Shown here one piece after another: positions 17,813-54,053 of a DNA stretch of 64,000 nucleotides; positions within the stretch are counted from its first letter, which is position 1; every line of letters starts with the position of its first letter. The translations under genes were made by a program, and so were the position numbers. The DNA is taken from contig CASEZY010000003.1 in assembly GCA_949292635.1 (NCBI GenBank), forward strand, positions 62,001 to 126,000, given 5' to 3'. The notes under the pieces are model-generated. The model ran no database searches. It saw only the letters and a list, made by a program, of their open reading frames with translations, and was not told the DNA's origin. The stretch comes from an uncultured Methanomassiliicoccales archaeon (lineage in GTDB: Archaea > Thermoplasmatota > Thermoplasmata > Methanomassiliicoccales > Methanomethylophilaceae).

Positions 17813-18104
17813 GAGAGGTAAGACGCGTTTACGGGTATTTAAGATTGTTTGAGTATGTTCAAAGATTTTGGCCCCTAAACAACGCATTCCTCTGCGTTTC
17901 GTATCAAAGCGGGCGAGGGTATCTCTATTAATGGTTTGCCATGAGCCAGCAATACGGCCGTTGCTTATACATAGGATTCGAAGCTCGGAGCGTTGTCGCA
18001 TCCGGGGATTCGGACTCTCCGTGCGAATCCAACGACGGAAGGACATCCACTGCCGATACGGCCTTGATTGTGCTCAAAATGTAGAAGGGGAAACGGTTTG
18101 GAGG

Positions 18105-30405: not shown

Positions 30406-30444
30406 GGCGTCTCCTCCCCGGAGACGCCTTCACAACCTTTTTTT
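30406..30444 (+). terminator. Hairpin terminator of the CBS gene
   Basis: A perfect 9-bp stem GGCGTCTCC/GGAGACGCC with a 5-nt loop (30406-30428) is followed by a run of seven T (30437-30443). The T-run adjoins the TATA-like region of valS. Confidence 0.75.
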
Positions 30445-30468
30445 ATACTATTATAATACGCAGTACCC

Positions 30469-33084
30469 ATGTCGCAGTACGATGTCGCAGCCGCCGAGAA
30501 GCGCTGGGAGCAGATGTGGAAGGATAGGGAGATCTACCGTTTCGATCCGAAGTCCGACAAGCCCGTATTCAGCATCGACAACCCTCCCCGCTACACGTCC
30601 GGGTCGTTGCACCTTGGACACGCCACCGGCTATTCGCTGATCGACTTCGCCGCCCGCTACAAGAGGATGCAGGGGTACAACGTGTTCTTCCCCCTGTGCT
30701 TCGATGTGAACGGTACACCCATCGAGGTGAAGGTGGAGAAGAAGCACGGCATCAACAAGCTGGACACCCCCAGGGCGGAGTACCGCAAGTACTGCGAGGA
30801 ATATGCGGAATCCTTCATCGCCCAGATGACCCACCACTTCGAGATCCTGGGAGAGTCCATGGACCCCTCGATATATTATCAGACGAACGCACCCTACTAC
30901 CGCAGGGTCACGCAGCTGACGCTGGTGGATCTGTTCAAACGCGGGCTGCTATACAAGGCCAACTTCCCCGTGAACTGGTGCCCCTCGTGCATGACCGCCC
31001 TGGCGGACGCCGAGGTGGAGTACCGCGACAACGTCAACAAGCTCAACTACATCGTCTTCAAGGTGAAGGACAGCGATGAGCAGATGATCATCGCCACCTC
31101 CCGTCCGGAGCTGCTGAGCACCTGCCAGAGCGTGGCCGTCCACCCTGACGACAAGTCCAAGGCACACCTGGTGGGCAAGACCCTCATCACGCCTCTTTAC
31201 AACAAGGAGGTCCCGGTCATCGCCGACCCCAAGGTCAAGATGGACTACGGCACCGGGAACGTGATGATCTGTACGATCGGGGACAAGGATGACCTCGAAT
31301 GGTGCCTTCTTTATCACTATCCCTTGCAGAAAGCCATCGACGAGATGGGCAAGATGACCGCCATCACCGGCAAGTACGAGGGCATGAAGGTCCTGGAGGC
31401 CAGGGAGGCGATCATACAGGATTTGAAGGACGCCGGACTGCTGATCAAGCAGGAGGACAACCCTCAGCAGCTATCCATCTGCTGGAGATGCCACAACCCC
31501 GTGGAGTACCTGCAGGTGCCCCAGTGGTTCTTGAAGACCTTAGATTACAGGGACAAGATCTTGGAGAGGTCAGGCTCGATCGAGTGGCACCCTGAATTCA
31601 TGCGGTCTCGCTTGGTGGATTGGACCAACTCCCTGGCTTGGGACTGGGTCATCTCCAGGCAGAGGATCTTCGCCACACCCATCCCCATCTGGGAGTGCGA
31701 GGACTGCGGCCACGCCGTCTGCGCGACGGAGGACATGTGCTATTGTGATCCGTACTATGATGCCGCTCCGGTGGACAAGTGCCCCAAGTGCGGCGGAAAG
31801 ATGGTCGGATGCCCCGACGTCTGCGACACCTGGGTGGATTCGTCCATATCTTCGCTGTACAACACCTTCTACGGAAGGGATGAGGAACTGCACAAGAAGC
31901 TCTTCCCCATGTCACTGAGGCCTCAGTCCCACGACATCATACGCACCTGGGCGTTCTACAGCATCCTTCGTGCGGAACAGCTCGAGCAGAAGATCCCCTG
32001 GCACGACATCATGATCCACGGGTTCATCATGGCCCCGGACGGGACTCCCATGCACTCGTCCATCGGCAACGTCATCGACCCCATACCGATCCTGGAGGAG
32101 TATGGTGCGGACGCTTTGAGGTACTACGCCGCCACGTGTTCCCTGGGAATCGATCACGCATTCAGGGAGAAGGACGTCATCCGCGGGCGCAAGCTGCTGA
32201 CCAAGGTGTACAACCTGGGACAGTTCGCCAAGAGGTACATCACAGAGAAGCCCGGGGAGATGCCGGAAGGTCTGCACCTCTCGGACCGCTGGATCCTCAC
32301 CATGTACAGCCGCGCTGTACGCTACGCGACGATCTACCTTGACCAATATCTGTTCGATAAGGCCGCCCGTGTAATCGAAAGTTATACATGGCATGAACTC
32401 GCGGACCACTACGTGGAGATGGTCAAGGGACGTACGGACGATGCGGTCAAGTACACCCTCTACACCGTGATTCTCGGTTCCATCAAGATGCTGGCCCCCA
32501 TTATGCCGCATGTTACCGAAGAGGTATACCAGGAGCTTTTCAGGGATTTCGAGGGTATCGAGTCCATCCACCTGACATCTTGGCCTGTCGAGGTCCTGGA
32601 TGACAACGTGGCTGCGGAAGAGGGCGAGGTTCTTAAGGAGGTTATCGCGAACGTCAGGTCGTGGAAGGCCGAGAAGAAGATCCCTCTCAATGCCTCGATC
32701 AGGCTGATGGAGGTCATTGGCCCCACCGCTTCCAAGCTGGAACCTGCCAGGTCCGATATTATCGGAACTCTCAAAGTCGAGGAGCTCAAGATGCAGGCGG
32801 ATGCGGAACTCACCCGCAACGTTGTCGGCATCAAGCCGGTGCATGCCAAGCTCGGTCCGCTGTTCAAGGCTAAGGCGAAGGCTGTTATCGCGGCTCTTTC
32901 TGCGATGGACGTTGCCGATGCCGCCTCTCAGTTGGACAAGACAGGCAAGATCGTCCTCGATGTAGAGGGTGAGCAGGTCGAACTACAGGCGGATCTGGTC
33001 GCTGTCGACACCGAGCTCATGCTTGATGGTAGAGCGGTGGAGACGCTGCAGGTCAACGATTTGTTGATTGCGATCGAGCTCTGA
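30469..33084 (+). CDS. valS: Valyl-tRNA synthetase
   Basis: 871-residue class I synthetase. HIGH is seen as GSLHLGHATG near residue 48, and the editing-domain region contains ATSRPELLSTCQSVAVHP. The KMSKS loop is non-canonical: APDGTPMHSSIGN. Two zinc-type Cys clusters are present (CWRC; CEDC...CPKC). The C-terminal anticodon domain is complete and ends in VNDLLIAIEL. TTTTTATACTATTATAAT 25-30 nt before the ATG indicates a leaderless transcript. From about 32330 to the stop the codon choice shifts toward GTT, GCT and CTT. A second copy of the 3' end lies at 39675-39731 (see findings). Confidence 0.95.
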   Translation: MSQYDVAAAEKRWEQMWKDREIYRFDPKSDKPVFSIDNPPRYTSGSLHLGHATGYSLIDFAARYKRMQGYNVFFPLCFDVNGTPIEVKVEKKHGINKLDTPRAEYRKYCEEYAESFIAQMTHHFEILGESMDPSIYYQTNAPYYRRVTQLTLVDLFKRGLLYKANFPVNWCPSCMTALADAEVEYRDNVNKLNYIVFKVKDSDEQMIIATSRPELLSTCQSVAVHPDDKSKAHLVGKTLITPLYNKEVPVIADPKVKMDYGTGNVMICTIGDKDDLEWCLLYHYPLQKAIDEMGKMTAITGKYEGMKVLEAREAIIQDLKDAGLLIKQEDNPQQLSICWRCHNPVEYLQVPQWFLKTLDYRDKILERSGSIEWHPEFMRSRLVDWTNSLAWDWVISRQRIFATPIPIWECEDCGHAVCATEDMCYCDPYYDAAPVDKCPKCGGKMVGCPDVCDTWVDSSISSLYNTFYGRDEELHKKLFPMSLRPQSHDIIRTWAFYSILRAEQLEQKIPWHDIMIHGFIMAPDGTPMHSSIGNVIDPIPILEEYGADALRYYAATCSLGIDHAFREKDVIRGRKLLTKVYNLGQFAKRYITEKPGEMPEGLHLSDRWILTMYSRAVRYATIYLDQYLFDKAARVIESYTWHELADHYVEMVKGRTDDAVKYTLYTVILGSIKMLAPIMPHVTEEVYQELFRDFEGIESIHLTSWPVEVLDDNVAAEEGEVLKEVIANVRSWKAEKKIPLNASIRLMEVIGPTASKLEPARSDIIGTLKVEELKMQADAELTRNVVGIKPVHAKLGPLFKAKAKAVIAALSAMDVADAASQLDKTGKIVLDVEGEQVELQADLVAVDTELMLDGRAVETLQVNDLLIAIEL

Positions 33085-33102
33085 TATCATTCAAAACAAT
33101 CA

Positions 33103-33119
33103 GGTGGGGTAACCCCACC
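33103..33119 (+). terminator. Hairpin after valS
   Basis: A 7-bp stem GGTGGGG/CCCCACC with a TAA loop, followed by CAATCTATTTTATTGG. It differs from the hairpin that follows the duplicated valS 3' end at 39727-39746. Confidence 0.6.
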
Positions 33120-33243
33120 CAATCTATTTTATTGGAATCTGGTGTGTAATCTGACTTGTAGTTACAGGCATGTGTCAGTTGTCTGATTCTGAACCTTCAG
33201 GGGTTTGACGGGCGAACGAAGTCGATTGGCAACCGGAGTTCAT

Positions 33244-33470
33244 TTTTCAATCCACGCACCCGCGAGGGGTGCGACGAACATCGATGGGTTTGGAATCAAT
33301 ATGCCTCTTGGCATTTCAATCCACACACCTATGAGAGGTGTGATTGTTAATGAGTTTGAGTGGAGTACAGAGGCTTTTCACCCATACATCCACTAGGATT
33401 CAACCATAGGTGATAAAGACGATCTCGAGTGATGTCTTTTTCAATCCACGTGCCCGCGAGGGAACGAAAC
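33244..33470 (-). CRISPR. Degenerate type I-C CRISPR array (fossil)
   Basis: Four repeat-like units of about 32 bp at about 33244, 33313, 33375 and 33438, spaced 62-69 bp. Units 1 and 2 keep the type I-C form: TTTCAATCCAC followed by a palindromic half (CGCACC...GGTGCG in unit 1, CACACC...GGTGTG in unit 2). Unit 3 keeps little beyond the TTTTCA...CATCCAC pattern; unit 4 keeps TTTTCAATCCACG. No two repeats are identical. Read on the minus strand, the array lies downstream of cas7 in the usual I-C order. Whether it is still processed is unknown. The rest of the 412-bp gap between valS and cas7 holds the valS terminator. Confidence 0.75.
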
Positions 33471-33496
33471 AATATGTTTGTGGAGTTCCGACCGTT

Positions 33497-34339
33497 TTAA
33501 TAGTATTCGGAAATCACCTCCGTCTCAATCCCAGGCAGGTCTTCAACTTGTATTTCATAGTCTGATAGTCTAGCAGGTGTGTCACAGAACGTTGTGACTC
33601 TGAGGGAGTTGTGAACCTTCGCAGTGGAAAATCTTCCCAGCGCTGAATCGTGCCTCCACCAGATTGTCTGTATGATCTCCATACTGCCATCAGGTCTGGA
33701 TGATGAACTATCGTTAATCAGGAGTGTGCTCAGCGCTTTTTTGAGAGTATCTGCATCATCATCGTCGAATCCGGTCTTTGATGCCAACTGAGGGTTGATA
33801 CTCCCCTTCAGGATATACAGCCCGTGATGGACACGATATTTCATTCCCATGGTGTCCGAGCCTTTCTTGTCTTTGGTCTCAGAGTTTACAGACTTGGTAA
33901 TCTGTGTGTTTACGATATTGATCGGTGCGACACTGATGGCCGGATGTACGGACACCGGGCCTTTGATGCCGATAGAGACTCCATGAGGGCCGTCTGACCC
34001 GAACGCGAACAGCTGTCCGAATGCACGAACATCAAACCACCTTTCACACGCCCGTTCAGTGAAGGATCCGTTCTTCTTCGATTCCCTGATCAATGGTTCC
34101 GCTCTGTCCCTCAGACTCTCCATCCCATCGTCCGCGCGGTCAGCGGATTGGACGAAGATGTTTTCGCCCATATCTTGGAGTCTGTTGCGAAGTTTACGTT
34201 TGATGCAGACATCGGAGATCTCACCGTGACCGTCGATGGTCGTTCTGGGGCGGTTGCCGTTCAAAGGATCTCCGTTGGGGTTGGCATTGTTAACGGAGAT
34301 GATCTGTGCGAAGTCGATTTTGTTTCTGATGTGATTCAT
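33497..34339 (-). CDS. cas7: Type I-C Cascade backbone protein Cas7 (Csd2)
   Basis: 280 residues with the Csd2 start (NKIDFAQIISVNNANPNGDPLNGNRPR), where the family conserves N-A-N-P-N-G-D-P, and later HHGLYILKGSINPQLA. Cas7 forms the crRNA-binding filament of Cascade. Its ATG overlaps the cas8c stop by 4 nt. Last gene of the cas3-cas5-cas8c-cas7 operon; cas4, cas1 and cas2, which normally follow, are absent. Confidence 0.95.
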   Translation of the reverse strand: MNHIRNKIDFAQIISVNNANPNGDPLNGNRPRTTIDGHGEISDVCIKRKLRNRLQDMGENIFVQSADRADDGMESLRDRAEPLIRESKKNGSFTERACERWFDVRAFGQLFAFGSDGPHGVSIGIKGPVSVHPAISVAPINIVNTQITKSVNSETKDKKGSDTMGMKYRVHHGLYILKGSINPQLASKTGFDDDDADTLKKALSTLLINDSSSSRPDGSMEIIQTIWWRHDSALGRFSTAKVHNSLRVTTFCDTPARLSDYEIQVEDLPGIETEVISEYY

Positions 34340-36162
34340 TCTTTCTCCTCCCTTATTCTGAATTGTTTCTCTTTCTGACAGTGATATGCTATCAGGAACT
34401 CTCCCGACAACCGGCTGTTGTCCATGTATTCATCAATGGCGAATTTTGACATGACTTCCGAGATTTGCCGCTCATAATAGTTGGCCTGCCTGCCCAGGCG
34501 TGTAATGTAGGGGACAAGCGACAGTTCGATATCCCTCCAGGTAGCAAATGGGAATTCCGAGAACCGTTGCATCATCCTGATAGCATTGGTCGGTCTGTTC
34601 TCGCCCGACGATCTTAATGCCGCACCTTCCAACAGGTCCGCGAGTGCCAACAGCCTGCCGTACAGATAGTCCCTGCTGCATCTTCCTTCTTCTAAAACCA
34701 TCTCGTATGTCCCTCCTTTTGATTTTTTGTACAGTGAGCAAGCAATCGCCAAAGTTTTCTGCCAGTCCCACTTCGAGTTGAATGACATGGGGTTCGAAGC
34801 CCTTCTGACGACGGATTCAACGATGTCTACCGGAATCTGGGTCCCGTCGATGATGCATGACAGGATACGGTTCAACGTGACTGTTACAAGTCTTTCATGA
34901 ACTATGGGGCCGTATGCGGCCATTGCGATGTCCTTGGGCGATGGTGCGCCGATATAGGAATGCCTACTTCCGTCGCTTGATACACGGTTGTGTCTCCAGG
35001 CGCATTGGTTGTGCCACCTCTCCAGTGTTTCCAGGAAATCGGATCCATCCTTGTCTCTGAAAAGAGTGACGGCAATCCTCCCTTTGTTCTCTGAAGCCGA
35101 ATCCAGTGCCATCAGGTAGACATTGGAGTCGATGATCTCAGAATTGTAACCGCGAATCCTATTGTTGATGTGTTTAGCAGCGGCAACATTCGTGTACACG
35201 ACGTTCTCCGGGGCTTCGATCATCTCGTATGGATCGTCCAATGGGTTCATGACATGGGCATCAGCGGTGTTCCAAGCGACGACGCACAGCGTCCCATGAC
35301 GATATCCTTGTCTACCGATCAGCCATCTCAGGGCATTGTGGGCCTTCTGGGAGGTTTCGGAACCTATGCCGCAGGCCTGTTCCGCCGTTTCAAAACGTCC
35401 GCGGTATGTGAATTCTGATTTGTCACTGCTGGATATGATCTTGCAATTATCAGCCGGGCTGCGTATTTCCTTTGGATGCTTATGCATCAAGGTTGTAATT
35501 TTTCCGGTGACGTAGCACAGCCCAACCTTGGAATCTAATTGTTGGTTGTAGTCTATCCATGAACCAATGACGTCCTTGTCGTACCACGTGTCCAAGAGGC
35601 GGTCACCTGTATACACAGACCATCTAACGAACGCATCCTGCTGCTTCGCTGTTTTGGACATGGACAGCTTCCACTCGTCCCGGGAGTCGGACAGTAGACC
35701 ATTGTCATCCTCTACCAGTAGTCCGCCGTCGATGAGATCATCGTAGATCGTCCCTTTTCTGAGGTATGAGTGCACCGCTTTGATATGGGGGCTACCGGAG
35801 ATGTCACACCACCTATCCAGCTGTTCCATGTATATGCGGTGGGCTGCTCCGTAATTGATCTTAGACTTCTTGCAATGGGCAGATAGATCACTGACGAGGT
35901 AGGGGAGTTTCTCCGTGAGTCCATGCGGCAATATATTCGTGGTTCTCCCAATAGATTCATTGGTAGACTGAATAATCGTTCTCTGCCGCCCCTTCGGTAT
36001 CGCCTCAACGTTCAGACAGTTACCTTCCGAATCTAACGTGATCCCAATGTGTGCCCTGCCCGGCGAGTGATATATCGGCAGCAGGGGTGTTCCGCCGTCA
36101 TTCAGTCTCGAGACATCGTAGCACCTGTCGTATGTTTCGGCAAGAGCTTTCATCCAACTCAT
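34336..36162 (-). CDS. cas8c: Type I-C Cascade large subunit Cas8c (Csd1)
   Basis: 608 residues from the ATG at 36162, which overlaps the cas5 stop (ATGA); the open frame reaches 36228 but the extension is non-homologous. Csd1-like layout: MKALAETYDRCYDVSRL...LLPIYHSPGRAHIGITLD at the start, the middle with CYVTGKITTLMHKHPKEIRSP, and a helical C-terminus. In I-C the large subunit reads the PAM and its C-terminal region can also be translated separately as Cas11; a start for that is not evident from eye inspection. Confidence 0.93.
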   Translation of the reverse strand: MSWMKALAETYDRCYDVSRLNDGGTPLLPIYHSPGRAHIGITLDSEGNCLNVEAIPKGRQRTIIQSTNESIGRTTNILPHGLTEKLPYLVSDLSAHCKKSKINYGAAHRIYMEQLDRWCDISGSPHIKAVHSYLRKGTIYDDLIDGGLLVEDDNGLLSDSRDEWKLSMSKTAKQQDAFVRWSVYTGDRLLDTWYDKDVIGSWIDYNQQLDSKVGLCYVTGKITTLMHKHPKEIRSPADNCKIISSSDKSEFTYRGRFETAEQACGIGSETSQKAHNALRWLIGRQGYRHGTLCVVAWNTADAHVMNPLDDPYEMIEAPENVVYTNVAAAKHINNRIRGYNSEIIDSNVYLMALDSASENKGRIAVTLFRDKDGSDFLETLERWHNQCAWRHNRVSSDGSRHSYIGAPSPKDIAMAAYGPIVHERLVTVTLNRILSCIIDGTQIPVDIVESVVRRASNPMSFNSKWDWQKTLAIACSLYKKSKGGTYEMVLEEGRCSRDYLYGRLLALADLLEGAALRSSGENRPTNAIRMMQRFSEFPFATWRDIELSLVPYITRLGRQANYYERQISEVMSKFAIDEYMDNSRLSGEFLIAYHCQKEKQFRIREEKE

Positions 36163-36842
36163 TCCGCACCACATCTGATTCCTACTCTGCGAGGTGTGTA
36201 GTTCTTGATGTGCTTGGACAGCGGGCACTGGTCGGGACGGATGAAATCCACGATGCCATCCCTCATCTCCGGGTACCAGAAACGTGCACGCAGGGAATCG
36301 TCTCCCGTCTCGTCGGCATAGTCGAAGCCGTGGAACATGATGTCAAACGTGCGGTCCGAGCCGTCGTAGGCGCCGGGACCTTCACCGAATGTGCAGGGCT
36401 CCACGTATCCCTGGCATTCGCGGGTTCCCAGGAAGATGTCCCTGTATCCTCCTTTGCTCAGGGCGCGATGGGCTATGTCGGAGTGCTTCCGCTCGTTGCA
36501 ATCGCCAGCTAGGTCCGGTCTGTGGGGGTTCCATATGAACCTGGCCCTGACCTGATACTCTACATTGTGGAGATATGTGTGAACGGTTCTGTCGTACGGG
36601 CTGTTGCTCCTGTTGTAATGGAGCGCTAGCATATTGACGGATTCGTTGAGGATCGGGTTGATGACGCGGAGCCTTTCGATGATCCAGATGATCGTCGGTT
36701 TCCAGTAGATGCTCTCGACTATGCCCTTTAGCGCCTGATATGTGGGTATGGGATAGGATGTTTTCTCGCCCCCGATCTTGGAGACGGGGTCACAGAACAT
36801 GGCGCGGCGGCCCCAAAGACGGAATTCTATAACGTTGTTCAT
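36159..36842 (-). CDS. cas5: Type I-C Cas5 (Cas5c/d), crRNA-processing subunit
   Basis: 227 residues: MNNVIEFRLWGRRAMFCDPVSKIGGEKTSYPIPTYQALKGIVESIYWKP is the RAMP start with the ferredoxin-like first strand, and FLGTRECQGYVEPCTFGEG follows in the middle. In type I-C this subunit replaces Cas6 as the pre-crRNA nuclease, using Tyr/Lys/His residues that I cannot place exactly. Its start is just downstream of the cas3 stop. Confidence 0.93.
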   Translation of the reverse strand: MNNVIEFRLWGRRAMFCDPVSKIGGEKTSYPIPTYQALKGIVESIYWKPTIIWIIERLRVINPILNESVNMLALHYNRSNSPYDRTVHTYLHNVEYQVRARFIWNPHRPDLAGDCNERKHSDIAHRALSKGGYRDIFLGTRECQGYVEPCTFGEGPGAYDGSDRTFDIMFHGFDYADETGDDSLRARFWYPEMRDGIVDFIRPDQCPLSKHIKNYTPRRVGIRCGAE

Positions 36843-36843
36843 C

Positions 36844-39192
36844 TCACACCTCGTAATGTTCCTTCATCTTTCCAAGAACGAACCCCAAGTCTGCATCGTA
36901 GTGTCCTTCTCTCAGACAGTACAACGAGCTGCCGTCTACGATCTCGTAAACGATCCCTTGGCGGATGGCCTCGTCAAGACGGTACGTGTTGACGGAGTAC
37001 TGTTGGAGGGCATTGATCGTCGCCTTGGGATCAGAGCATGTGGGGTCCGCATCCCCAATCTCGGAGATGAGTCTCCGTGCCGTGTCATCGTAGGGTACGA
37101 TGATGCTCTGCATCCTCCCGATGGCACTGAATATGGAGTTAGCGGTGCGGAAGGACTGCCTGGAGTATAGCGGCGGATTCCTTCCGTTGATCGAACGATA
37201 TGCATGCACGGCGTTGCTGTTCGATGACAGCATGTTGCAAAGGTCCTCGCCGCGCCCGACCGGATACGCCATGTCCCCGGTCCTCTTGGACGAGAACATC
37301 TCATAATATCTGTCCATGGTCGCCGGGTCGGCGGGATCGTGCGTACCATCTCCGAGCATGGCGTCTGATACCCTACGCCCTTCGTAGATGTCGACCAGGG
37401 GGCCAAGTTCCTCGTCGGTCTTGACCACGATGACATCTCCGACCGCTCTTCTACCATGGCGATTGCAGCGTCCTGCAGCCTGTACGATGGAATCCAGGCC
37501 GGCAAGGGAGCGGATGACCATGTCGAAATCCATATCCGCGCCGGTTTCCAGGACCTGTGTGCTCACGCATATCAGGCGACCGTTTGACTCCAGCCCTTCA
37601 CGGATCTCTTCCATCCTGTCCCTGCGATGCCTTGGGCACATGTCCGTGCTGAGATGATAGGTCGGGATGTGGCGGCCTCTGGATCTGAGATGCAGGAAGA
37701 CCTCCTTCGCCATCCTCTTGGTGTTGACGATGACGAGAACGTTCCGGTGTTTGCCGATGCACTTTTTCGCAAGGTCCGCCAGATATCCGGGGCCTTCGGC
37801 CTTCGCTCCGGGGTTCGCGTACCATATCCTCGTGTGGCGCATGCTTTGGAACAGGCTTCCGGTGTCGGGGACGATCTCCGGTTCCTTGTCCATGATCAGC
37901 GGGAACCTCTCTGTTCTGTGCAGCAGGGGCTGGGTGGCAGAAGTGAGGACAACGCTGCTTCCGCAGTGCTGGGTGAGGAAGTTCACGGCCGCGTTGAAGA
38001 GGTATCTGACCTTGACCGGGAGACACTGTATCTCGTCGAAGATGATGACGGCGTTGGCCAGATTGTGCATCCTCCTGACCTTCCTGGTCCCTGATGAGTA
38101 GAACGTCTCCAGGAACTGGACCATGGTGGTGAAGATCACGGGGCCGTCCCAGGAGTCGGTCGCAGAGTCCCAGGCATCCGTATCACCGTCCCCGACGTCT
38201 ACGTTGGAATGGCATTCCGTGACGATCGGTGCCCCTCCATCCCTTTCGAGGATGCCTTTGATGACCGCGGCGTTCTGGTCGATGACCGAGAGATACGGAG
38301 AGACAACAACAATGCGCCTCATCCCGTGTACGATCAGATGGTTCAGGGCGAATCTGAACCCGGAGATTGTCTTTCCGCCGCCGGTGGGGGCCGTTAATGA
38401 GTATGCGCCTCTCGGCCTCGACGAGGATTCGAGACATCCCTCCGAGATGCGGTGCCGGAGCCTGTCGATGGGTGTGTCTTTTGGTACGGACCCCAGATGT
38501 TCCTCGAGGCGGCGGCTCAGCTCTCTCCAGTCCGTGTTCTTAGACATATACTCCTCGTTCCGGACGAAGGATGCGGTATCGATGCGATCCGCATCGACCA
38601 GGCAGCTGAGGATCATCCTGATCAAGAGTCCGAGCCGGAGTCTCTTCTCGCTGCCGTCCGCATGGGATATAATGATCCTCTGGATGAGAGCCGAGAGCTC
38701 ATCGACGGCGGGCGCATACTCATGTATGGTGTGCAGGAGGAGTCCCTCATCGATGCGGTGGAGGGTTTCCTTCAGGAAGTTCTGCCCATGGAGCCTCCTA
38801 TCGAAATTGTCGATACCGTCGGGTGTCAGGCAGTCGATTAGTCCGGTGTGGTGGGACATCACGGCAATCTCGGCCATCTCGGATGCGAGACATTGGTGTC
38901 CATCACCATCCCTCAGGATGCGGAGCAACTGTGCGCCGGCGGTGGAATGTATCACGTCGCCGCGCTTCTGCTTCGGGTCATAACCGAGGATGTACGCGAA
39001 GAAGTCCGGGTGGGCCTTGCCGATGTCGTGGATTAGGCCTGTCAGATAGGCCATCCTTCCGATTCCGATGGCGCTGCCGAAGGATCCTGCCAGGCGGGCC
39101 GTGTTGTAGAGGTGCTCCTCCAGTGATTGGATCCTTCCCGTCTCGTCGATATGAGCAATGTTCCCGAATTCCAGACTCTCGATCATCTTCAT
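36844..39192 (-). CDS. cas3: CRISPR-associated nuclease-helicase Cas3
   Basis: 782 residues with an HD nuclease domain first (LIHDIGKAHPDF, His55-Asp56; MSHHTGL later) and an SF2 helicase second: Walker A TAPTGGGKT at about residue 270, DEIQ box in VIIFDEIQCLPV, SAT motif VVLTSATQPLL and motif VI QAAGRCNRHG. All nuclease and helicase motifs look intact, so interference could still work. First gene of the operon. Confidence 0.95.
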   Translation of the reverse strand: MKMIESLEFGNIAHIDETGRIQSLEEHLYNTARLAGSFGSAIGIGRMAYLTGLIHDIGKAHPDFFAYILGYDPKQKRGDVIHSTAGAQLLRILRDGDGHQCLASEMAEIAVMSHHTGLIDCLTPDGIDNFDRRLHGQNFLKETLHRIDEGLLLHTIHEYAPAVDELSALIQRIIISHADGSEKRLRLGLLIRMILSCLVDADRIDTASFVRNEEYMSKNTDWRELSRRLEEHLGSVPKDTPIDRLRHRISEGCLESSSRPRGAYSLTAPTGGGKTISGFRFALNHLIVHGMRRIVVVSPYLSVIDQNAAVIKGILERDGGAPIVTECHSNVDVGDGDTDAWDSATDSWDGPVIFTTMVQFLETFYSSGTRKVRRMHNLANAVIIFDEIQCLPVKVRYLFNAAVNFLTQHCGSSVVLTSATQPLLHRTERFPLIMDKEPEIVPDTGSLFQSMRHTRIWYANPGAKAEGPGYLADLAKKCIGKHRNVLVIVNTKRMAKEVFLHLRSRGRHIPTYHLSTDMCPRHRRDRMEEIREGLESNGRLICVSTQVLETGADMDFDMVIRSLAGLDSIVQAAGRCNRHGRRAVGDVIVVKTDEELGPLVDIYEGRRVSDAMLGDGTHDPADPATMDRYYEMFSSKRTGDMAYPVGRGEDLCNMLSSNSNAVHAYRSINGRNPPLYSRQSFRTANSIFSAIGRMQSIIVPYDDTARRLISEIGDADPTCSDPKATINALQQYSVNTYRLDEAIRQGIVYEIVDGSSLYCLREGHYDADLGFVLGKMKEHYEV

Positions 39193-39300
39193 ATTACCGA
39201 TTACACTCGGTTGATATGTGTGATGCAGTTCTAGTATATCAATATATCATTTAGATGAAATTAATATATCAATGGATATTGATTAAATAATGAAACAAAT
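39193..39300 (-). promoter_or_regulatory. AT-rich promoter/operator region of the I-C cas operon
   Basis: Upstream of cas3. An ACCGA/TCGGT inverted repeat (about 39196-39211) touches the start, CACATATCAA about 25 nt upstream is a TATA-like box on the minus strand, and beyond it several ATATATCA units and an ATCAAT/ATTGAT inverted repeat (about 39272-39287) form a block of extreme A+T. It would suit a repressor-controlled promoter. Confidence 0.4.
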
Positions 39301-39386
39301 GTATGGTGCTGGGCCAGTAGTCTACTGACAGGGTGGGGGTAGGGGCCCCAATCAACAGTTTTCGATGTTTCATGCCCTGATCCAAA

Positions 39387-39660
39387 ATGCTAGAATATGG
39401 TGTGACCGGGAAGGGCAACACCGTCGGTAACGGTACGTACGAGGCTTGCGGAAACCACTCCTGCAAGTTCTCCGCAAGGAATGCGGCCATCTATTCAACA
39501 TCCGCACAGGTAATGTTTACGAAGGCCTCAGGATCGAGAACGAAAAAATCGAGATTGGCCTCAGGCGTCTCAAAGGGGGCTTCAGCCTTTGTGTCACTGC
39601 GTGTTCGGACAGATGCAGTGTGTACGGCGTGCGTCTACGGTCCCTTCGGGCGTCTAGCCA
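39387..39660 (+). pseudogene. Possible degraded transposase fragment
   Basis: In the 700-bp gap between cas3 and the helicase gene. One frame reads ECGHLFNIRTGNVYEGLR followed by a helix with LRRLKGGFSL, which looks like the zinc-ribbon/helix start of IS1-type transposases (C-x2-C...F-x-RTG-x-x-Y/F-x-G-L-R). The preceding part with GNGTY...CGNHSCK is in another frame. No intact ORF, no terminal inverted repeat found. Identification by eye, tentative. Confidence 0.3.
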
Positions 39661-39674
39661 CATTGGTCGCGTGA

Positions 39675-39731
39675 GGGAGAACGGTTGAGACGCTACAGGT
39701 CAACGACCTGTTGATTGCGATCGAGCTGTGA
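39675..39731 (+). repeat. Duplicated valS 3' end (insertion scar)
   Basis: A 57-bp copy of the end of valS (33028-33084). The last 50 bp differ at only five positions, and all five are synonymous (V, L, D, L, L codons); one further change gives Ala to Thr. It still encodes GRTVETLQVNDLLIAIEL and a stop. Upstream of it the homology breaks off. It is followed by its own hairpin terminator. Together with valS it brackets the type I-C locus as imperfect direct repeats 6.6 kb apart. Confidence 0.88.
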
Positions 39732-39746
39732 GGGGAGACCCTCACA
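39727..39746 (+). terminator. Hairpin at the duplicated valS end
   Basis: A perfect 8-bp stem TGTGAGGG/CCCTCACA with a GAGA loop overlaps the stop codon of the valS remnant. It is probably the original valS terminator. Confidence 0.6.
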
Positions 39747-39891
39747 ACTCCAACACCTTTTGTGATCTGAGACCATCCGCCGGCAAGATATCGGTGATGT
39801 GCCAGTAGTAATAATTCGCTTATGACGGTCATATTGAGGATGTGTCCACATATGGAAACAATTAATCTGTTACATCGGCTAACCCGTACCC

Positions 39892-42687
39892 ATGGCCGCT
39901 CCCAACGCCAGACCTCCTGCCAGTAACATCGACTTGGTCAATCATGCATTGGAAATCATAAAGCCCCGGCTTCAGGACTTCGTGATCCGTAGCATGGAGG
40001 ATACCTTCGGCAGCAGGTGGTGGGACGATTGTGTGGTCGCTCGTAAGTTAGTCCTGAACGCCAGCAATTATCTACCGACCGGAGACGCGTCAGAAGCTGC
40101 CATCCGTTCATACATGGACATCACCCTCTGCATGAACATCATCTCGCAATATAAACTGGTCAACGACAGCAGTGTCAGGAGTGCCAATAATCCGCTCCAG
40201 GCGGTCCGCCGCGTGAGGAACTTCCAGAGTCACAACGGCCGTACCGATATTACCGACTCCGAGGCCGCCGGCATGGTCATGCAGGTGATAGCCCTCGATG
40301 AGTATATGTCCCTGGGCTGTGCGGACGGGCTCTGGGAGATTATGAGGTATCTGGGGCCTGCCGGCGTGAAGGTGGACCATCCCGTTGAGTGGAAGGACGT
40401 CACGACGGTAAAAACAGCAGGGAAGGAAGGTTCCGCTCCGGCGCATGTGCCATCTGAGAACGGTTCTCAGGCAGTGGAGGTTCGTGTCGTCGGTGAGACT
40501 GGGTCTCGCAATGACGACAAAACTAGCGTATCTGCCATGTGCATAGATGCCTGCGAGAGCTTCCGCCGGCGGCTGGAGGAGAAGCAGAAGGGCAATGGCA
40601 GCGTCGGACGTTCCACCTCCGAGATAAAGAGCATAACGCCATCCAACGGCGTTTACCACCTGTCATTGTATCACCCCATCATCCCGGATGAAAGCATGGG
40701 TATCACCATCGGCGGGTACGCCTTCGAATCCGACCGTGTCCGGTTCGAGAATTACAAGAAGGCCACCCAGACCATAGATCTGATAACAGAGGACCCAGAT
40801 CTGCGGCGTCTATTGGACTCCAATGACCCGGGACTGAAGAAGATCCTGTTCACCGATATGCTGTGGATCGTCAATCGTACCCGGGACTTCTATTCCTCGT
40901 TCAGTTATCATCTCGACAATCCGTCGATATGCGGTGCGCCGTCAGAACCTCTTGGAAAGACGTATCTGAATCTCTCCGACGAGCAGCGTAAGGCGGTGGA
41001 GATGAGCATGTCTGAGCCGCTGTCCTATGTCTGGGGTGTTCCCGGATCCGGTAAGACCCAGTACGTGCTAGCGACCACCATCATTGAATGTATCCGCAAA
41101 GGTCAAAGGGTTGCTGTGGTGGCACCCACCAACTCCGCCTTGGAGCAGGTGCTCAGAGGCCTTCTGCATTCGTTCGAGGGCATTCCCGAAGAGGAGAGGA
41201 TCATCAATCCAAGGGAGGATGTGGTGAGGATCGGAACTCCTACGTCGGAGTTCATGGACAACTATGGATACGTCTGCTACAGGAAGGACATGGTCAAGAA
41301 GATGGACGATCTGTTCAACGAGCTGTTGGAGCTCAGGGACATTCTCTCCGAGCGCAGATATGACGAATATCGTGGTCTCTGCGAATCCTCTTTGGAGAAA
41401 GCATCCTCGCTGGGTCAACATGACATCCAGGGCAGGAGGGCTGTGGTCTCCGCTTTGAAGCCGTTGATCGACCTCGTGAACGGGGACATGCGTCTTCGCC
41501 ATGAGAACATCTCCGTATTCGAGGACACCCTCAAGAGGGACATAAAGGCGTTGTACGACACCCTCTATCAGAACAGGGACAGGAGCGCGTATCTGAAAAG
41601 TAAGTTCCCCTCCATGTCCGTACAGAGTCTGGAGAAGGAGGTCGCGGACCGGGAGAAGAGGTTCGATGCCATGCGCAGACAGGGCGGTGTAGCCACCCCC
41701 GAGACGGCCAAGGTGGTGGCCATGACGCTCCCGCGCTTCATCATATCCTACGGTCCCTCTGCCGCGGACGGGAGGATCCCGCTGGACGTGGACCATGTGT
41801 TCGTGGACGAGGCGGGTTACTGCAACTGCATCCAGACCTACACGTTGTACTCCCTCGGTGTTCCGATAACGTTCCTGGGAGACCACATGCAGCTGGAGCC
41901 GGTCTGTGAGATCGAGTCGAAGCTTCTGAAGGCCGATTGCCTGAGCGGTGGTCAAGGCGGTCACGATTTCCTTTGGGATATGTCCTCTCTGCACTCTGAG
42001 CATCTGATGGACGGTGATATGGACAAGCTTTCCCGGACGTATCTGTTCGAGGATGAACCTGATTTCGCACATACGGCATATTCGCCGCTGACTACCACTC
42101 ACAGGTTCGGTTCGAACCTGGCGGAGGCGTTGGGTCGCTATGTCTACACCAAGGATGGTATCATCAGTGCCAGTGACCGTCCCTTGGAGGTCAAGATCAT
42201 AAGCGCATATGTGGACAAGTTCAATGAGAAGCAGGACAGGTTCCGGCGCCCCAATTCCGACGAGGAGCAGGCGAAGAAGTACTACAGGACCAACTCCGCC
42301 GAGGCGAAGGAGGTGTTCGGATACATCCGTGAGAACCTCTCGAAATCCGACGACTATGTGGTGCTCACGCCCTATACGGATCAACGCAAATATCTGCAGG
42401 AAGCGATTCCTCGGGATCGGGTCCTGACCATACACAGCTCTCAGGGGAGGGAGTGGGACACCGTCATCATATCGCTGGTGGATTGCCGTGCCAATGAGAA
42501 TCAAGGTGTCCTGATGCGCTTCACCAGCATCTTGCCTATCCCCGGAGAGGAGATCAAGGGTCTCAAGGTGATGAACACCGCACTGTCCAGGGCGAAGAAG
42601 AGGTTGGTCCTGGTCTGCGATGCGGAGTTCTGGGCATCCCGCAACGGTGAGCTCGTGGGGGACGTGGTGCGCTCGAATTACCCGTGA
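39892..42687 (+). CDS. HEPN-domain superfamily 1 helicase (probable defence protein)
   Basis: 931 residues. The N-terminal ~150 residues match a Swt1-like HEPN domain (RLQDFVIRSMEDTFGSRWWDD...) with an RX4H ribonuclease motif, RNFQSH (Arg109-His114). From about residue 360 follows a Upf1-like SF1 helicase: Walker A WGVPGSGKTQ, Walker B VDEAGYCN, motif III GDHMQLEPV, motif V SSQGREWDTV and motif VI NTALSRAKKRL. Such HEPN-helicase fusions are found in defence islands, where the HEPN RNase is thought to kill or arrest infected cells. It lies between the I-C locus and two CARF regulators, whose nucleotide-sensing fold often accompanies HEPN RNases. Confidence 0.85.
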   Translation: MAAPNARPPASNIDLVNHALEIIKPRLQDFVIRSMEDTFGSRWWDDCVVARKLVLNASNYLPTGDASEAAIRSYMDITLCMNIISQYKLVNDSSVRSANNPLQAVRRVRNFQSHNGRTDITDSEAAGMVMQVIALDEYMSLGCADGLWEIMRYLGPAGVKVDHPVEWKDVTTVKTAGKEGSAPAHVPSENGSQAVEVRVVGETGSRNDDKTSVSAMCIDACESFRRRLEEKQKGNGSVGRSTSEIKSITPSNGVYHLSLYHPIIPDESMGITIGGYAFESDRVRFENYKKATQTIDLITEDPDLRRLLDSNDPGLKKILFTDMLWIVNRTRDFYSSFSYHLDNPSICGAPSEPLGKTYLNLSDEQRKAVEMSMSEPLSYVWGVPGSGKTQYVLATTIIECIRKGQRVAVVAPTNSALEQVLRGLLHSFEGIPEEERIINPREDVVRIGTPTSEFMDNYGYVCYRKDMVKKMDDLFNELLELRDILSERRYDEYRGLCESSLEKASSLGQHDIQGRRAVVSALKPLIDLVNGDMRLRHENISVFEDTLKRDIKALYDTLYQNRDRSAYLKSKFPSMSVQSLEKEVADREKRFDAMRRQGGVATPETAKVVAMTLPRFIISYGPSAADGRIPLDVDHVFVDEAGYCNCIQTYTLYSLGVPITFLGDHMQLEPVCEIESKLLKADCLSGGQGGHDFLWDMSSLHSEHLMDGDMDKLSRTYLFEDEPDFAHTAYSPLTTTHRFGSNLAEALGRYVYTKDGIISASDRPLEVKIISAYVDKFNEKQDRFRRPNSDEEQAKKYYRTNSAEAKEVFGYIRENLSKSDDYVVLTPYTDQRKYLQEAIPRDRVLTIHSSQGREWDTVIISLVDCRANENQGVLMRFTSILPIPGEEIKGLKVMNTALSRAKKRLVLVCDAEFWASRNGELVGDVVRSNYP

Positions 42688-42852
42688 CGTATTCCGGACG
42701 GTGGCAAACAGTCAAAAATAATCTTTGATTGTCATCAAATCCCAATATATGTCTATCAGACAATCTTACCATCATGGATAAAGGGAAGATAGGCATGTCT
42801 CCGCGGTCTGTCGCGGATGTGGTACGGAACGGAAGCGCCGTGGGGTGCTGAG

Positions 42853-43521
42853 ATGCACATCCACATCGCGCCGGTGGGGTTCAGCAGGGAGCCGGTGCTG
42901 AAGGTGATCAGCAGGCTCCCGGGGATAGATGTGTTGTACCTTCTGCACACGGACAACCCGGTGTCGCTGGAAACCGCCCGGAGCATCAGGGACACCGTGT
43001 CCTGCATGATTCCCTCCATCAACCTTATCACCATCCCGTTCTCGGATTTCATGGGGATTGTGGCGACGATCTACAGCATCTTCGAGGACACCAAGGCAAA
43101 GGATGCGGAGTTCTCGGTGAACATAACCGGCGGCACCAATCTGATGGCCGCCGCGGTCTGCTACAGCTCGTATTACATCAGAGCTAAGATCTACTACTCC
43201 CTGAACAGCACCGACCCCATAGAGAGCCAGGTGATCGAGATCAATGCCCCCAAGGCGGTGGACGTCAGCGGCTACAGGGAGCTCACCCGGGATATCCTGC
43301 TGTACATGCTGGAATGCAGACGCAGGGACATCATGGTCACCAATTCCGATATCTCATCGAGATTCGGCATCAACAAGCAGAAGGCGGCGTACCACGTGAA
43401 GATACTGGCACATGACGGTCTCGTGGAGAAGAGGCCGTTCGTGGAAGGCGGTGTGCCGGATGCCCGCAGGAACGCCCTGGTGCTCACGGCACAGGGCGTG
43501 ATGATCGCCAACACCCTGTGA
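42853..43521 (+). CDS. CARF-winged-helix regulator (Csa3-like), copy A
   Basis: 222 residues from the ATG at 42853. The N-terminal Rossmann-like CARF domain begins MHIHIAPVGF and holds the ligand-loop motif VNITGGTNLMAAA; the C-terminal winged helix (DISSRFGINKQKAAYHVKILAHDGLV) would bind DNA. Such proteins sense cyclic oligoadenylates or related nucleotides and control CRISPR or defence genes. The stop is immediately followed by the end of copy B on the other strand, with no intergenic base. Codon choice is that of the host. Confidence 0.85.
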   Translation: MHIHIAPVGFSREPVLKVISRLPGIDVLYLLHTDNPVSLETARSIRDTVSCMIPSINLITIPFSDFMGIVATIYSIFEDTKAKDAEFSVNITGGTNLMAAAVCYSSYYIRAKIYYSLNSTDPIESQVIEINAPKAVDVSGYRELTRDILLYMLECRRRDIMVTNSDISSRFGINKQKAAYHVKILAHDGLVEKRPFVEGGVPDARRNALVLTAQGVMIANTL

Positions 43522-44187
43522 TCATTCACAGAGCCAGCTTGCCACAAGCCTGCCCTGTCCGGTCAGCTTGATGCTGTTGACCCTGTTGTTGGTCCTGCCC
43601 CCGGATTCCACTCCGCGGACCTTCTCCAGTAAGCCTTCCTCTTCCAACACGCGGAGGTGGTAGGATACGGTCTGCTTGTTCAGGCCGAAGGCGTCGGAGA
43701 TCATGGATGCGGTAAGTATGTCCTCCTGGCACTCCAGCACGTAGCGGAGGATGTCCTGGGTCTTGCCCTTGATGCGGTGCAGGTCCGGGGTCCTGGGGGT
43801 GGGTATCCATATGAGCTGCTCGGAGGCGCTCTTCTCCGGGTCCCGCAGGACGTAGCATATCTTGGCACCGACGAAGAACGCCGTGGAGCATGCCGCGGCG
43901 GCCATGAGGTTGGTGCCGCCGGTGATGTTGATGGAGAATGTGTTCTTGCTGCCCTCGTCCCTGAATATGGAGTATATGGTGTCCACGATGCTCTGGAAGT
44001 CGAAGCCGCTTATGGTGCGCATCTCCACATCCACCATCGCCCTGCCGAAGAAGTCCTCCAGGATGTGGGCGGATTCGGAGAACGCCCCGCTGATGAGGAT
44101 ATACACCTTGTCGATGCCGGGGATGGCGTTGAACGCCTTGATCACTGGTTCCACCGCCTGGCCGGCGGTGGCGATGTGGATGTGCAT
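43522..44187 (-). CDS. CARF-winged-helix regulator (Csa3-like), copy B
   Basis: 221 residues, paralogous to copy A: MHIHIATAGQAVEPVIKAF, then INITGGTNLMAAA and a wHTH (MISDAFGLNKQTVSYHLRVLEEEGLL). It is convergent with copy A and divergent from the Hsp70-like gene, 77 nt away, so it could control that promoter. The CARF loops of the two copies are nearly identical (N-I-T-G-G-T-N-L-M-A-A-A), which suggests the same ligand. Confidence 0.85.
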   Translation of the reverse strand: MHIHIATAGQAVEPVIKAFNAIPGIDKVYILISGAFSESAHILEDFFGRAMVDVEMRTISGFDFQSIVDTIYSIFRDEGSKNTFSINITGGTNLMAAAACSTAFFVGAKICYVLRDPEKSASEQLIWIPTPRTPDLHRIKGKTQDILRYVLECQEDILTASMISDAFGLNKQTVSYHLRVLEEEGLLEKVRGVESGGRTNNRVNSIKLTGQGRLVASWLCE

Positions 44188-44264
44188 GGTAATAAAATTA
44201 GTTTTACCGTATTAGAATTTTCCTAAATATCTATGCAATCATATTACTGTCCGAGGTAAAGAAA

Positions 44265-45836
44265 ATGATAATCGGGATAGACTTCGGAACCTGCTATTCC
44301 AGTGCCGCGATCATGAACGGGCTCATACCCGTCACCACCTTCCTCAAAGACTCCACGGGCATGGGGGTCCCCTCATTGTTCATGTACTCCCAGGAGGAGG
44401 GCAGGGAGATGTACGGCGAGGAGTGCGAGACCGGTGCCGCCTTCAGGCACTCCTCGGACATCATCCGCTACATGAAGAGGACGGTCCGCGAGGACCCCGC
44501 CAACCTGGAGAAGACGGTATCCAGCGGAGGGAAGGAGTACAGGCTCAGCGAGGTCATCGAGAAGTACCTGACGTTCCTGATCAACGAGATCCGCACCGCC
44601 GCCATCAGGTCCGGGGAGTACGCCAACAACGAGATCGAGGCGGTGACCATCACCGCCCCGGTGGGCATCGCCAGCGGCCAGATGATGGCCTCCGAGTACA
44701 ACCGTCTGATCCAGGAGGCGGTGATGCGCATCACCGGCCTTCCCAAGGAGGACGTGAGGGTGCTGCAGGAGCCCGTTGCGGCTGCGGTTTCATATCTGTA
44801 CTCCCAGGATGTGAGGACCCACTACGACGGCATCCAGAAGATCCTGGTCTTCGACCTTGGCGGCGGAACGCTGGACGTGAGCATCGTGGAGCACGACCCC
44901 GCCACCATGGAATACAGGATCCTTGCGAAGGAGGGCGACCTGGAACTCGGCGGCAACGATTGGGATGCCGCCCTGAGGGACAGGATCATGGAGAAGGTGG
45001 GCCTGAAATGGCAGGGCACCCCGGAGGAGACCGCCAGGTTCGTGAAGGTGGTCACCAGGACCAAGGTGGAGCTGTCGGACGCTGACGAGTCGGTGGTGGT
45101 GTTCACCATGAACGGTCAGGACAGGTTCACCCGCATATCCCGCAGGGAGTTCGAGGACTGCACCTCCCATCTGCTGGAGAGGGCGATGGACGTGATGCAG
45201 CGTGCCTTGGACTTCGATCCCGAATGCGCCCCGGACAGGATCGTGCTGGTGGGCGGGAGCAGCAACATGCCCCAGATCGCCAGGGGGATCATCGAGAGGA
45301 CGGGATACGCCCCGGAGGACGTGTGCGTGTACGAGCCGTCGAAGGCGATCGTGAAGGGGGCGGCGGTGTTCGCCAAGCTCAACCACGCCTCGGACGGTTC
45401 CGCCGTCGGACCCAGGGTGCTGGACATGGCCACCCTCACCTACGGGTTCGACTCACGCTATCACGGCGAGAGGGAATGCATCTACAACATGATCTACAAG
45501 GGGGACCGCTTCGACGAGGACGGCCGTATAATCAGGAAGTCGGAATCCAGCTTCATCCCCCTGAGGGACAACCAGACCGTGGTCACCTTCGAGGTATATG
45601 AGTCCGAGTTCTCCCGGGAGGATTGTTTCGAGGAGAACTGGATCGACATGGGCTCCGGCGAGACCTACAACGGACTGAGGGTCTCGGTGCAGGTGCCGCC
45701 GGAGTACTTCGGCAAGGCCCGCGGGTTCCACATGTGGGCCACCATGTCCCTGGATTCCAACGGGATATTGGACATAACCGTCACCGATGCCGCCGGCAGG
45801 AGGCTGGCGTACGGCTCCACCGCCCTGGGGGAGTGA
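44265..45836 (+). CDS. Hsp70-like ATPase in the defence island
   Basis: 523 residues. It has phosphate-1 IGIDFGTCYSSAAI, phosphate-2 LVFDLGGGTLDVSIV and adenosine motif IVLVGGSSNMPQIA, then a beta-sandwich-like C-terminal part; the helical lid is missing. It is distant from the Hsp70-like protein at 7.6-9.1 kb and contains extra insertions. It is in an operon with the GrpE-like gene downstream (2-nt gap) and divergent from CARF copy B. Probably a specialised chaperone; substrate unknown. Confidence 0.87.
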   Translation: MIIGIDFGTCYSSAAIMNGLIPVTTFLKDSTGMGVPSLFMYSQEEGREMYGEECETGAAFRHSSDIIRYMKRTVREDPANLEKTVSSGGKEYRLSEVIEKYLTFLINEIRTAAIRSGEYANNEIEAVTITAPVGIASGQMMASEYNRLIQEAVMRITGLPKEDVRVLQEPVAAAVSYLYSQDVRTHYDGIQKILVFDLGGGTLDVSIVEHDPATMEYRILAKEGDLELGGNDWDAALRDRIMEKVGLKWQGTPEETARFVKVVTRTKVELSDADESVVVFTMNGQDRFTRISRREFEDCTSHLLERAMDVMQRALDFDPECAPDRIVLVGGSSNMPQIARGIIERTGYAPEDVCVYEPSKAIVKGAAVFAKLNHASDGSAVGPRVLDMATLTYGFDSRYHGERECIYNMIYKGDRFDEDGRIIRKSESSFIPLRDNQTVVTFEVYESEFSREDCFEENWIDMGSGETYNGLRVSVQVPPEYFGKARGFHMWATMSLDSNGILDITVTDAAGRRLAYGSTALGE

Positions 45837-45838
45837 GC

Positions 45839-46729
45839 ATGGGACGTCGGGACAAGAAGGAGAGGACCCTCACATACGGCTATGCCGTGGTGAGGGTGGG
45901 CTGCGTCTGCGGTCGTCACGAGGTGGGCACCAACAGTAGGGGGGACGTGGTGTGCAAGAGCTGCGGGAGACCCCTGGCCCTTGCCACCGGGTTTCGGGTG
46001 TTCGGTACGGAGACGGATGCGTTGCTGTCGAGATTCGACGAGGACGAGGGGATCCGCGGGGCGCTGGAATCCCATCTGAGGGAGACGGCATGCCCGGAGG
46101 AGATCGACGAGACGGAGAGGCTGAGGGCCAGGGTGGAGGAGCTGGAGGAAGAGCTTACCAGAATCATCGAGGGGCACGAGGCGGAGATTTCGGGGATCAA
46201 GGAGCAATTCGGGGAGGAGATCTCCAGGATCGTCGGGGAATCGAACGAGAAGATCTTGCGTCTGGACGGAGAGAGGAGGCTGCTGAGGGAGAGGTCCTCC
46301 GCACTCGAATCGGAGGTGGCGGAACTGAACGCCACGATGAGGCACCTGAGGAACGAGATCGAGCGCATGCGTGCGGTGGATGTGCGTTCCATAGCGGAGG
46401 AGGTCATGATCTATGCAGCCGGTGTGGACAACACCCTGTGCGAGTCGGAGAGCCTGGATGATGCCAGGGAAAGGGTGGATATGCGCACCCACCGGCTGAT
46501 CAGCGCCGTCGGCAGCAAGGGGATGCATGTGACCTTCCACCGCAGGGGGGACCCGGTGGGGGAGGGAAGGATGGACATCACGCCGATCCCCACGGACAAT
46601 CCGGAGAAGGACATGACGGTGCAGAGGTCCACCCGTTACGGGTGCTCCTTTGACAACGATGTATACGCGGATGTGCCGGAGGAGTTGTCGGTGTTCAGGT
46701 GTCAGGCAATGCGGATCGATGAGTGTTAG
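45839..46729 (+). CDS. Zinc-ribbon/coiled-coil protein with a GrpE-like C-terminus
   Basis: 296 residues. The N-terminus has a zinc ribbon (CVCGRHEVGTNSRGDVVCKSCG), followed by a coiled coil of about 130 residues rich in E, R and L (LRARVEELEEELTRIIEG...), and a C-terminal ~90 residues with the GrpE-like order: helix (VDNTL...), a GMHVTFHRRGDPV turn, then DMTVQRSTRYGCSFDNDV and a final beta segment. It begins 2 nt after the Hsp70-like gene, so a nucleotide-exchange factor for it is the simplest reading. The GrpE match is by layout only. Confidence 0.6.
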   Translation: MGRRDKKERTLTYGYAVVRVGCVCGRHEVGTNSRGDVVCKSCGRPLALATGFRVFGTETDALLSRFDEDEGIRGALESHLRETACPEEIDETERLRARVEELEEELTRIIEGHEAEISGIKEQFGEEISRIVGESNEKILRLDGERRLLRERSSALESEVAELNATMRHLRNEIERMRAVDVRSIAEEVMIYAAGVDNTLCESESLDDARERVDMRTHRLISAVGSKGMHVTFHRRGDPVGEGRMDITPIPTDNPEKDMTVQRSTRYGCSFDNDVYADVPEELSVFRCQAMRIDEC

Positions 46730-48868: not shown

Positions 48869-49170
48869 AGTACCACGAATCTGTCAAGGGTGTCAAGTAC
48901 CTCTTTTTGCGCTTCACCGACGATTATCTCAATCTGTTGGAACTGGCGTTCGGTAACCGTAAGCATTTGAACGTTCCCTTTCGGAGGTCTGTGGCTGATG
49001 ACATCCTTTTTGATTGTCTGAACTGCGGCGCCATTCATGGCTATCTTACAGTAGACGGATTTTTGGACCATGATGAAGCCGTGAACTTGGAGGTACTTAC
49101 GGAATTTCGTATAGTTCCGCCTGTCCTCGGATGTCTCGACCGGCAGGTCAAAGTATACAATCAGTCTCAT
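48865..49170 (-). CDS. cas2: CRISPR adaptation nuclease Cas2
   Basis: 101 residues from the ATG at 49170: MRLIVYFDLPVETSEDRRNYTKFRKYL is the ferredoxin-like Cas2 start with the conserved Asp in FDLP, and RPPKGNVQMLTVTERQFQ follows. It overlaps cas1 by 23 nt and csn2 by 4 nt. The Cas1-Cas2 complex integrates spacers. Confidence 0.95.
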   Translation of the reverse strand: MRLIVYFDLPVETSEDRRNYTKFRKYLQVHGFIMVQKSVYCKIAMNGAAVQTIKKDVISHRPPKGNVQMLTVTERQFQQIEIIVGEAQKEVLDTLDRFVVL

Positions 49171-50047: not shown

Positions 50048-50049
50048 GC

Positions 50050-54015: not shown

Positions 54016-54053
54016 TACAACACCTGTGTCGTTAATTATCCAAGTTTGCACAA

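Follow-up and report, generated by a model that had tools for sequence, protein, structure and literature searches.

A valS 3' end apparently displaced by a type I-C CRISPR-Cas block in a Methanomethylophilaceae archaeon

Many defence islands lie between core genes without an integrase, and the route by which they entered has mostly been inferred. Integrase-free hotspots that recombine in their flanking core genes have been documented in bacteria (PMC5635113). In an experiment with Escherichia coli, 56 of 60 recombinants possessed gene-end duplications, which were ascribed to a single crossing-over of a circle without part of the gene end; such circles were most likely produced by linearisation, trimming and then re-circularisation (PMC3240628). 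The present analysis concerns a window of 64 kb (the whole stretch of DNA analysed) from the Methanomethylophilaceae genome GCA_949292635.1 (G000; a draft in 21 contigs, 99.9% complete), in which a type I-C CRISPR-Cas (clustered regularly interspaced short palindromic repeats) block lies between valS, the valyl-tRNA synthetase (ValRS) gene, and a second copy of the valS 3' end. The processes involved are of known kinds; the new element is a natural scar of them, well preserved, in a defence hotspot of an archaeon.

The valS gene has orthologues in all 61 genomes searched. The closest genome compared is that of Candidatus Methanomethylophilaceae E17 bin108 (CALULN010000001.1, locus L037; hereafter G005), with 91% amino acid identity in valS. 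The features concerned are as follows.

30469..33084, + strand: valS, an intact open reading frame (ORF) of 871 amino acids whose tail is read as donor-derived
33028..33084, + strand: attached valS 3' end, the first repeat copy
39675..39731, + strand: orphan (displaced) valS 3' end, running on into sequence that lies 3' of valS in G005
39727..39746, + strand: hairpin of the displaced valS end, TGTGAGGG-GAGA-CCCTCACA, with the same sequence after valS in G005
33103..33119, + strand: hairpin in the incoming valS 3' untranslated region (UTR), GGTGGGGTAACCCCACC, z score -1.75

The attached and orphan ends are identical at 50 of 57 bp and share no exact stretch longer than 19 bp, in agreement with the earlier note on this DNA, which had placed the end of valS at 33084 and a 57-bp copy at 39675-39731. 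They are the sole strong repeat pair genome-wide (E-value 2e-14), and the second-best match to the attached end in the window reaches 30/57. Seven differences separate them: those at positions 12, 21, 33, 34 and 54 are all synonymous, as had been claimed for the five in the last 50 bp, while that at position 3 is also synonymous and that at position 7 gives the orphan Thr in place of Ala. The hairpin after the orphan has an 8-bp stem, overlaps the valS stop codon and reaches -19.3 kcal/mol for a 54-nucleotide stretch (z score -2.9); the same note had described it as a perfect 8-bp terminator, of which the hairpin stands and the terminator role is putative.

In G005, valS, ending ...CTGTTGATCGCCATAGAGCTGTGAGGGGAGACCCTCACAATTCC, runs directly into the sequence found 3' of the orphan copy, and the match to window 39732-40568 has 94% identity (about 900 bp). 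This is the empty site that had been predicted, with valS joined directly to the sequence after 39731. As valS of G005 leads into the same sequence as the orphan does, the orphan is a displaced valS end, now 6.6 kb further downstream, and segment 33060-39671, comprising the cas genes, a decayed array and a cut transposase gene, arrived joined to a donor valS end. The G005 site thus supports the proposal that a block carrying its own valS end and the I-C locus integrated here and displaced the old end. This block-free relative possesses the hairpin sequence of position 39.7 kb after its valS, and displaced valS ends are confined to 2 of 147 genomes rather than occurring everywhere regardless of cas genes.

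The two copies also divide at one point.

33049..33059 (39696-39706 in the orphan), + strand: inferred crossover zone CAGGTCAACGA, 11 bp, identical in both copies and in G005

Compared with G005, changes restricted to the orphan fall at positions 7, 12 and 21 of 57, and those restricted to the attached copy at positions 33, 34 and 54, so that the six informative bases split perfectly into left and right. The host-like parts are the attached copy to the left of CAGGTCAACGA and the orphan to its right, where it runs into the host flank. The left part of the orphan encodes GRTVETLQ, and ValRS of other species have GKTVET and GRTVDT; as the T at this place occurs in these other ValRS, this part is plausibly genuine donor valS.

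The inserted block contains the following features.

33243..33470, + strand: decayed I-C-type CRISPR array of about four repeats
33497..34339, - strand: cas7 (Csd2; PF05107, TIGR02589)
34336..36228, - strand: cas8c (Csd1; PF09709, TIGR01863)
36159..36842, - strand: cas5c (PF09704, TIGR01876)
36844..39192, - strand: cas3, with HD and helicase domains (TIGR01587, TIGR01596)
39330..39671, + strand: 5' part of a transposase gene, frameshifted, which stops where the orphan valS end begins and has a nucleotide match in the genome G019

The type I-C identity given to the locus earlier is borne out by profile matches for cas7, cas8c, cas5 and cas3, that of cas3 being to general Cas3 profiles alone. 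The block is without cas4, cas1 and cas2; in it cas7 adjoins the array remnant and then valS, and the single Cas1 detected in the genome is part of a type II locus. Relatives G115, G119 and G023 have I-C loci with a cas4-like ORF 3' of cas7, followed in G115 and G119 by a cas1-like ORF. No further array with the repeat of the block was found in the genome, which leaves the block with about four decayed repeats and no functional array. It is best read as an interference-only and probably decaying remnant. Type I-C genes are rare, being found in 6 of the 147 genomes of the order Methanomassiliicoccales and in none of five relatives of the same genus, G005 among them, and the GC content at third codon positions (GC3) of cas7 and cas8c is 0.58-0.61 versus 0.81 in valS. 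The transposase fragment has about 75% nucleotide identity to a longer transposase gene in G019 (locus L164) and no Pfam match; an assignment as an IS1595-like transposase at 39387-39674, which was without Pfam support, was replaced by this nucleotide match. No integrase or recombinase was found within or next to the block, as the earlier note had observed for its interior, and no intact tyrosine recombinase (PF00589) in the genome. The sole Phage_integrase match in the genome (G000:C3:159692-160135) lies near the end of a contig and is a broken pseudogene, interrupted by two internal stops, and two serine recombinases are encoded on another contig.

The explanation preferred here, to which about an even chance is given, is single-crossover integration of a circularised donor fragment into the valS end. 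The donor would be another archaeon of the family with I-C genes 3' of valS. The two ends of a linear fragment, which carried only the last ~57 bp of donor valS, the I-C genes and the first part of the transposase gene, would have been joined, making a circle in which the cut transposase abutted the cut valS end, and one crossover within the 57 bp, inside CAGGTCAACGA, would have opened it into the chromosome. The host valS would thereby keep its protein and gain the last ~25 bp and 3' UTR of the donor, while its own last ~25 bp and hairpin would be moved to 39707-39746. The circular intermediate, the single crossover and the donor are what we infer from several observations besides the block-free site of G005, the left-right split of the differences and the donor-like left part of the orphan. 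The truncated transposase gene ends at the orphan, which is itself truncated at this illegitimate junction with a broken cargo gene, as in a single-crossover gene-end duplication. The block opens with a natural-looking valS 3' UTR hairpin. The absence of an integrase from the block and of an intact PF00589 gene from the genome, the rarity of I-C genes in the order and the low GC3 of the cas genes relative to valS point the same way.

Several points weigh against this explanation. The left-right split rests on six informative bases, and chance alone would give it, in the direction expected, in 1 of 20 cases. Searches with the incoming 3' UTR, which has no convincing match in the 147 genomes, and with cas8c did not reveal the donor. 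Known systems cross over inefficiently where the homology is imperfect and only 57 bp long, and an integrase could conceivably have been lost after integration. The right flank of G005 is 94% identical to that of the window, versus about 87% in core and neighbouring genes; this flank may have been gained by recombination, so that the ancestral state and the polarity are not fully safe, while the orphan is itself evidence that the right flank once adjoined a valS end. Compared with G005, the one close relative available, valS is a mosaic of tracts with 98-99% identity and others with 72-77%. The low identity in the C-terminal part is partly expected, since this domain is more variable in all relatives. 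The N-terminal tract of 99%, together with the right flank of 94%, suggests recent exchange between the lineages of the window and G005. The 5' third of this essential gene (window 30439-31238), about 98% identical to G005 beside neighbouring genes with about 87%, has the appearance of a recombination tract.

Displaced ends elsewhere were searched for with a profile of the last 26 ValRS residues against the 147 genomes, one candidate (G073) being left out, and clear displaced valS ends are present only in G000 and in G007 (JAAYNL010000019.1), which belongs to another genus. An ABC transporter cluster separates valS of G007 from a second copy of its end, 6.4 kb downstream. The copies match over about 117 bp, with 76 of the first 77 bp identical and, in the last 40 bp, 10 differences without effect on the protein. 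A chlD-like gene forms the end of the insert; it is cut where the orphan begins and is 82% identical to a longer copy further right. This one further case differs from that of G000 in crossover position and has unrelated content. Its repeat opens with a 56-bp exact run, close to k = 55, a common assembler overlap length, so an assembly error is possible and the case needs read-level proof. No orthologous valS-chlD order was found in relatives, and related ABC-transporter cargo lies 3' of valS in G099. Three other candidates were rejected: that of G117 is a full valS with an in-frame TAG, and those of G111 and G062 are overlapping contig ends and a contig edge, respectively. The TAG of G117 (contig C191, locus L147, ~3350-3580) lies near the valS 3' end and may be read through, the use of pyrrolysine being known in this order, or may stem from an error of assembly. 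A scan of 1.39 Mb of sequence for displaced ends of other genes yielded those of valS in G000 and G007 alone, besides one 44/60 match in locus L053. The one further match in G000, at window 17204-18046, belongs to a tandem paralogue family and is not a displaced end. A broader proposal, considered unlikely, is that Methanomethylophilaceae have at the valS 3' end a recurrent entry point that needs no integrase. Cargo of related species would be ratcheted in behind valS by recombination within the last 60-120 bp of the gene, and each displaced end would be a scar that records the order of insertion.

The main rival to single-crossover integration, considered somewhat unlikely, is homology-facilitated illegitimate recombination, in which one side recombines homologously and the other is closed by an illegitimate join or a template switch. 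The donor tail and the I-C genes would have entered as a copy whose right end, through chance or microhomology, became attached a little inside the end of the host valS and so duplicated it, giving the same junction of broken gene and orphan end. The junction of truncated chlD and orphan valS in G007, at a shared GGCA in CGTCGatGGCA/CGTCGgcGGCA, fits such a join, and illegitimate joining has been proposed for displaced 3' ends of type VI secretion system (T6SS) effector and Rhs genes (PMC5361080). It was rare in the E. coli experiment, however, where it yielded deletions and not duplications (PMC3240628). It also predicts a host-like left part of the orphan, which is in fact less like G005 than the attached copy is.

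Site-specific integration is quite improbable. In this case a mobile element with an attachment site (attP) mimicking the valS 3' end would have restored the gene, and its recombinase gene would since have been lost. Islands that sit in gene 3' ends typically show short direct repeats that restore the target gene, and the window shows direct repeats at both ends of the block, one of which restores an essential gene. The recurrence at valS in another genus (G007) and the two serine recombinases elsewhere in the genome are also in its favour. On the other side, neither insert encodes a recombinase, no intact tyrosine recombinase exists in the G000 genome, and orphan valS ends are restricted to the two genomes already named. 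The G000 and G007 inserts have no genes in common, and both finish in a broken gene. A search of viral contigs for an attP-like sequence gave no match, the valS-end motif occurring in none of them.

The next explanation concerns the interval between valS and the next conserved gene; the features of this interval outside the block are listed here.

39892..46729: right flank, formerly joined straight to a valS end, with a HEPN-helicase gene, two CARF-HTH genes, an HSP70-like gene and a coiled-coil ORF; its start and end are also present in G005
55965..57392, - strand: DEAD-box helicase gene, right border of the variable interval, with an orthologue 3' of valS in 48 of 66 loci

In these 48 of the 66 loci from relatives, which include two stretches of G005, a related DEAD-box helicase gene lies 5 bp to 10.9 kb downstream of valS, in most cases convergent with it. 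The gap in the window measures 22.9 kb and holds, besides the I-C block and the right flank, a CRISPR array with csn2, cas1 and cas9, and an amidohydrolase-like ORF. Conserved core flanks and variable content make the site a hotspot. That double homologous recombination in the core genes on either side exchanged the whole interval, the donor already having the orphan, is very doubtful. The conserved flanks and variable content, the valS mosaic relative to G005, and the exchange of integrase-free hotspots through recombination in flanking core genes (PMC5635113) agree with it, but it merely shifts the origin of the orphan to another genome, and the right flank is common to G005, which is without I-C genes. 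An assembly artefact joining two strains is exceedingly improbable even in a draft of 21 contigs, as the 19-bp exact run is too short for a k-mer chimera, no usual k-mer joining the copies, and both junctions lie inside a 160-kb contig.

Other parts of the interval were also characterised. Two CARF-HTH genes (Csa3/HFX_2341-like) on opposite strands at window 42817-44187 stand beside the HSP70-like gene and a HEPN-Swt1 helicase gene (39892-42687), a cluster that is possibly a further defence or regulatory module. A type II-A CRISPR-Cas9 locus, with an array of 36-bp repeats, occupies window 46900-54051 and encodes Csn2 (TIGR01866), a type II Cas1 (TIGR03639) and a Cas9 of 1333 amino acids (TIGR01865, E-value 1e-256) whose HNH and RuvC motifs are visible by eye. 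Archaeal Cas9 has been reported mainly from ARMAN (archaeal Richmond Mine acidophilic nanoorganisms) lineages. Homologues are present in 8 of the 147 genomes, including the single-contig genome G020 (53%), which makes contamination unlikely. In G005 (L037, 13449-14218) the right flank is without window 40569-46503 and is followed by an array with the I-E-like repeat GGATCACCCCCGCGTATGCGGGGAGCAC; different CRISPR arrays thus lie behind the same marker in the two genomes, the window having its II-A locus there.

The locus offers a natural example of defence genes entering without an integrase. Its scar can still be read, since an essential gene carries an incoming end, the old end lies displaced downstream, the gene at the junction is broken, and a block-free relative exists. 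It suggests that the accessory content of a hotspot can grow by addition and not by replacement alone, and displaced ends of flanking core genes form a signature that can be searched for across genomes.

Compared with known systems, the block keeps the canonical order of type I-C CRISPR-Cas, cas3-cas5c-cas8c-cas7, and differs in its lack of cas4-cas1-cas2, of which relatives G115, G119 and G023 have cas4-like ORFs, and in its decayed array. Like the integrase-free hotspots of bacteria, the window has core flanks (valS and the DEAD-box helicase gene), variable cargo and no recognisable integrase in the block; in those hotspots content is replaced by double recombination (PMC5635113), whereas in this archaeon an additive insertion left a scar. 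In Rhs and T6SS effector arrays, too, the old end of a gene is pushed aside by a new module and persists downstream as an orphan. The retention of that end with its immunity gene has been ascribed to their function (PMC5361080), whereas the orphan in the window consists of only 18 codons of a housekeeping gene with no apparent function. The E. coli lacZ-end duplications share with the window an intact gene with an incoming end, cargo, and a partial end at an illegitimate junction; they were obtained with laboratory plasmids and a selectable marker and measured 109-950 bp (PMC3240628), whereas the present case is a natural interspecies insertion in an archaeon, with a duplication of 57 bp.

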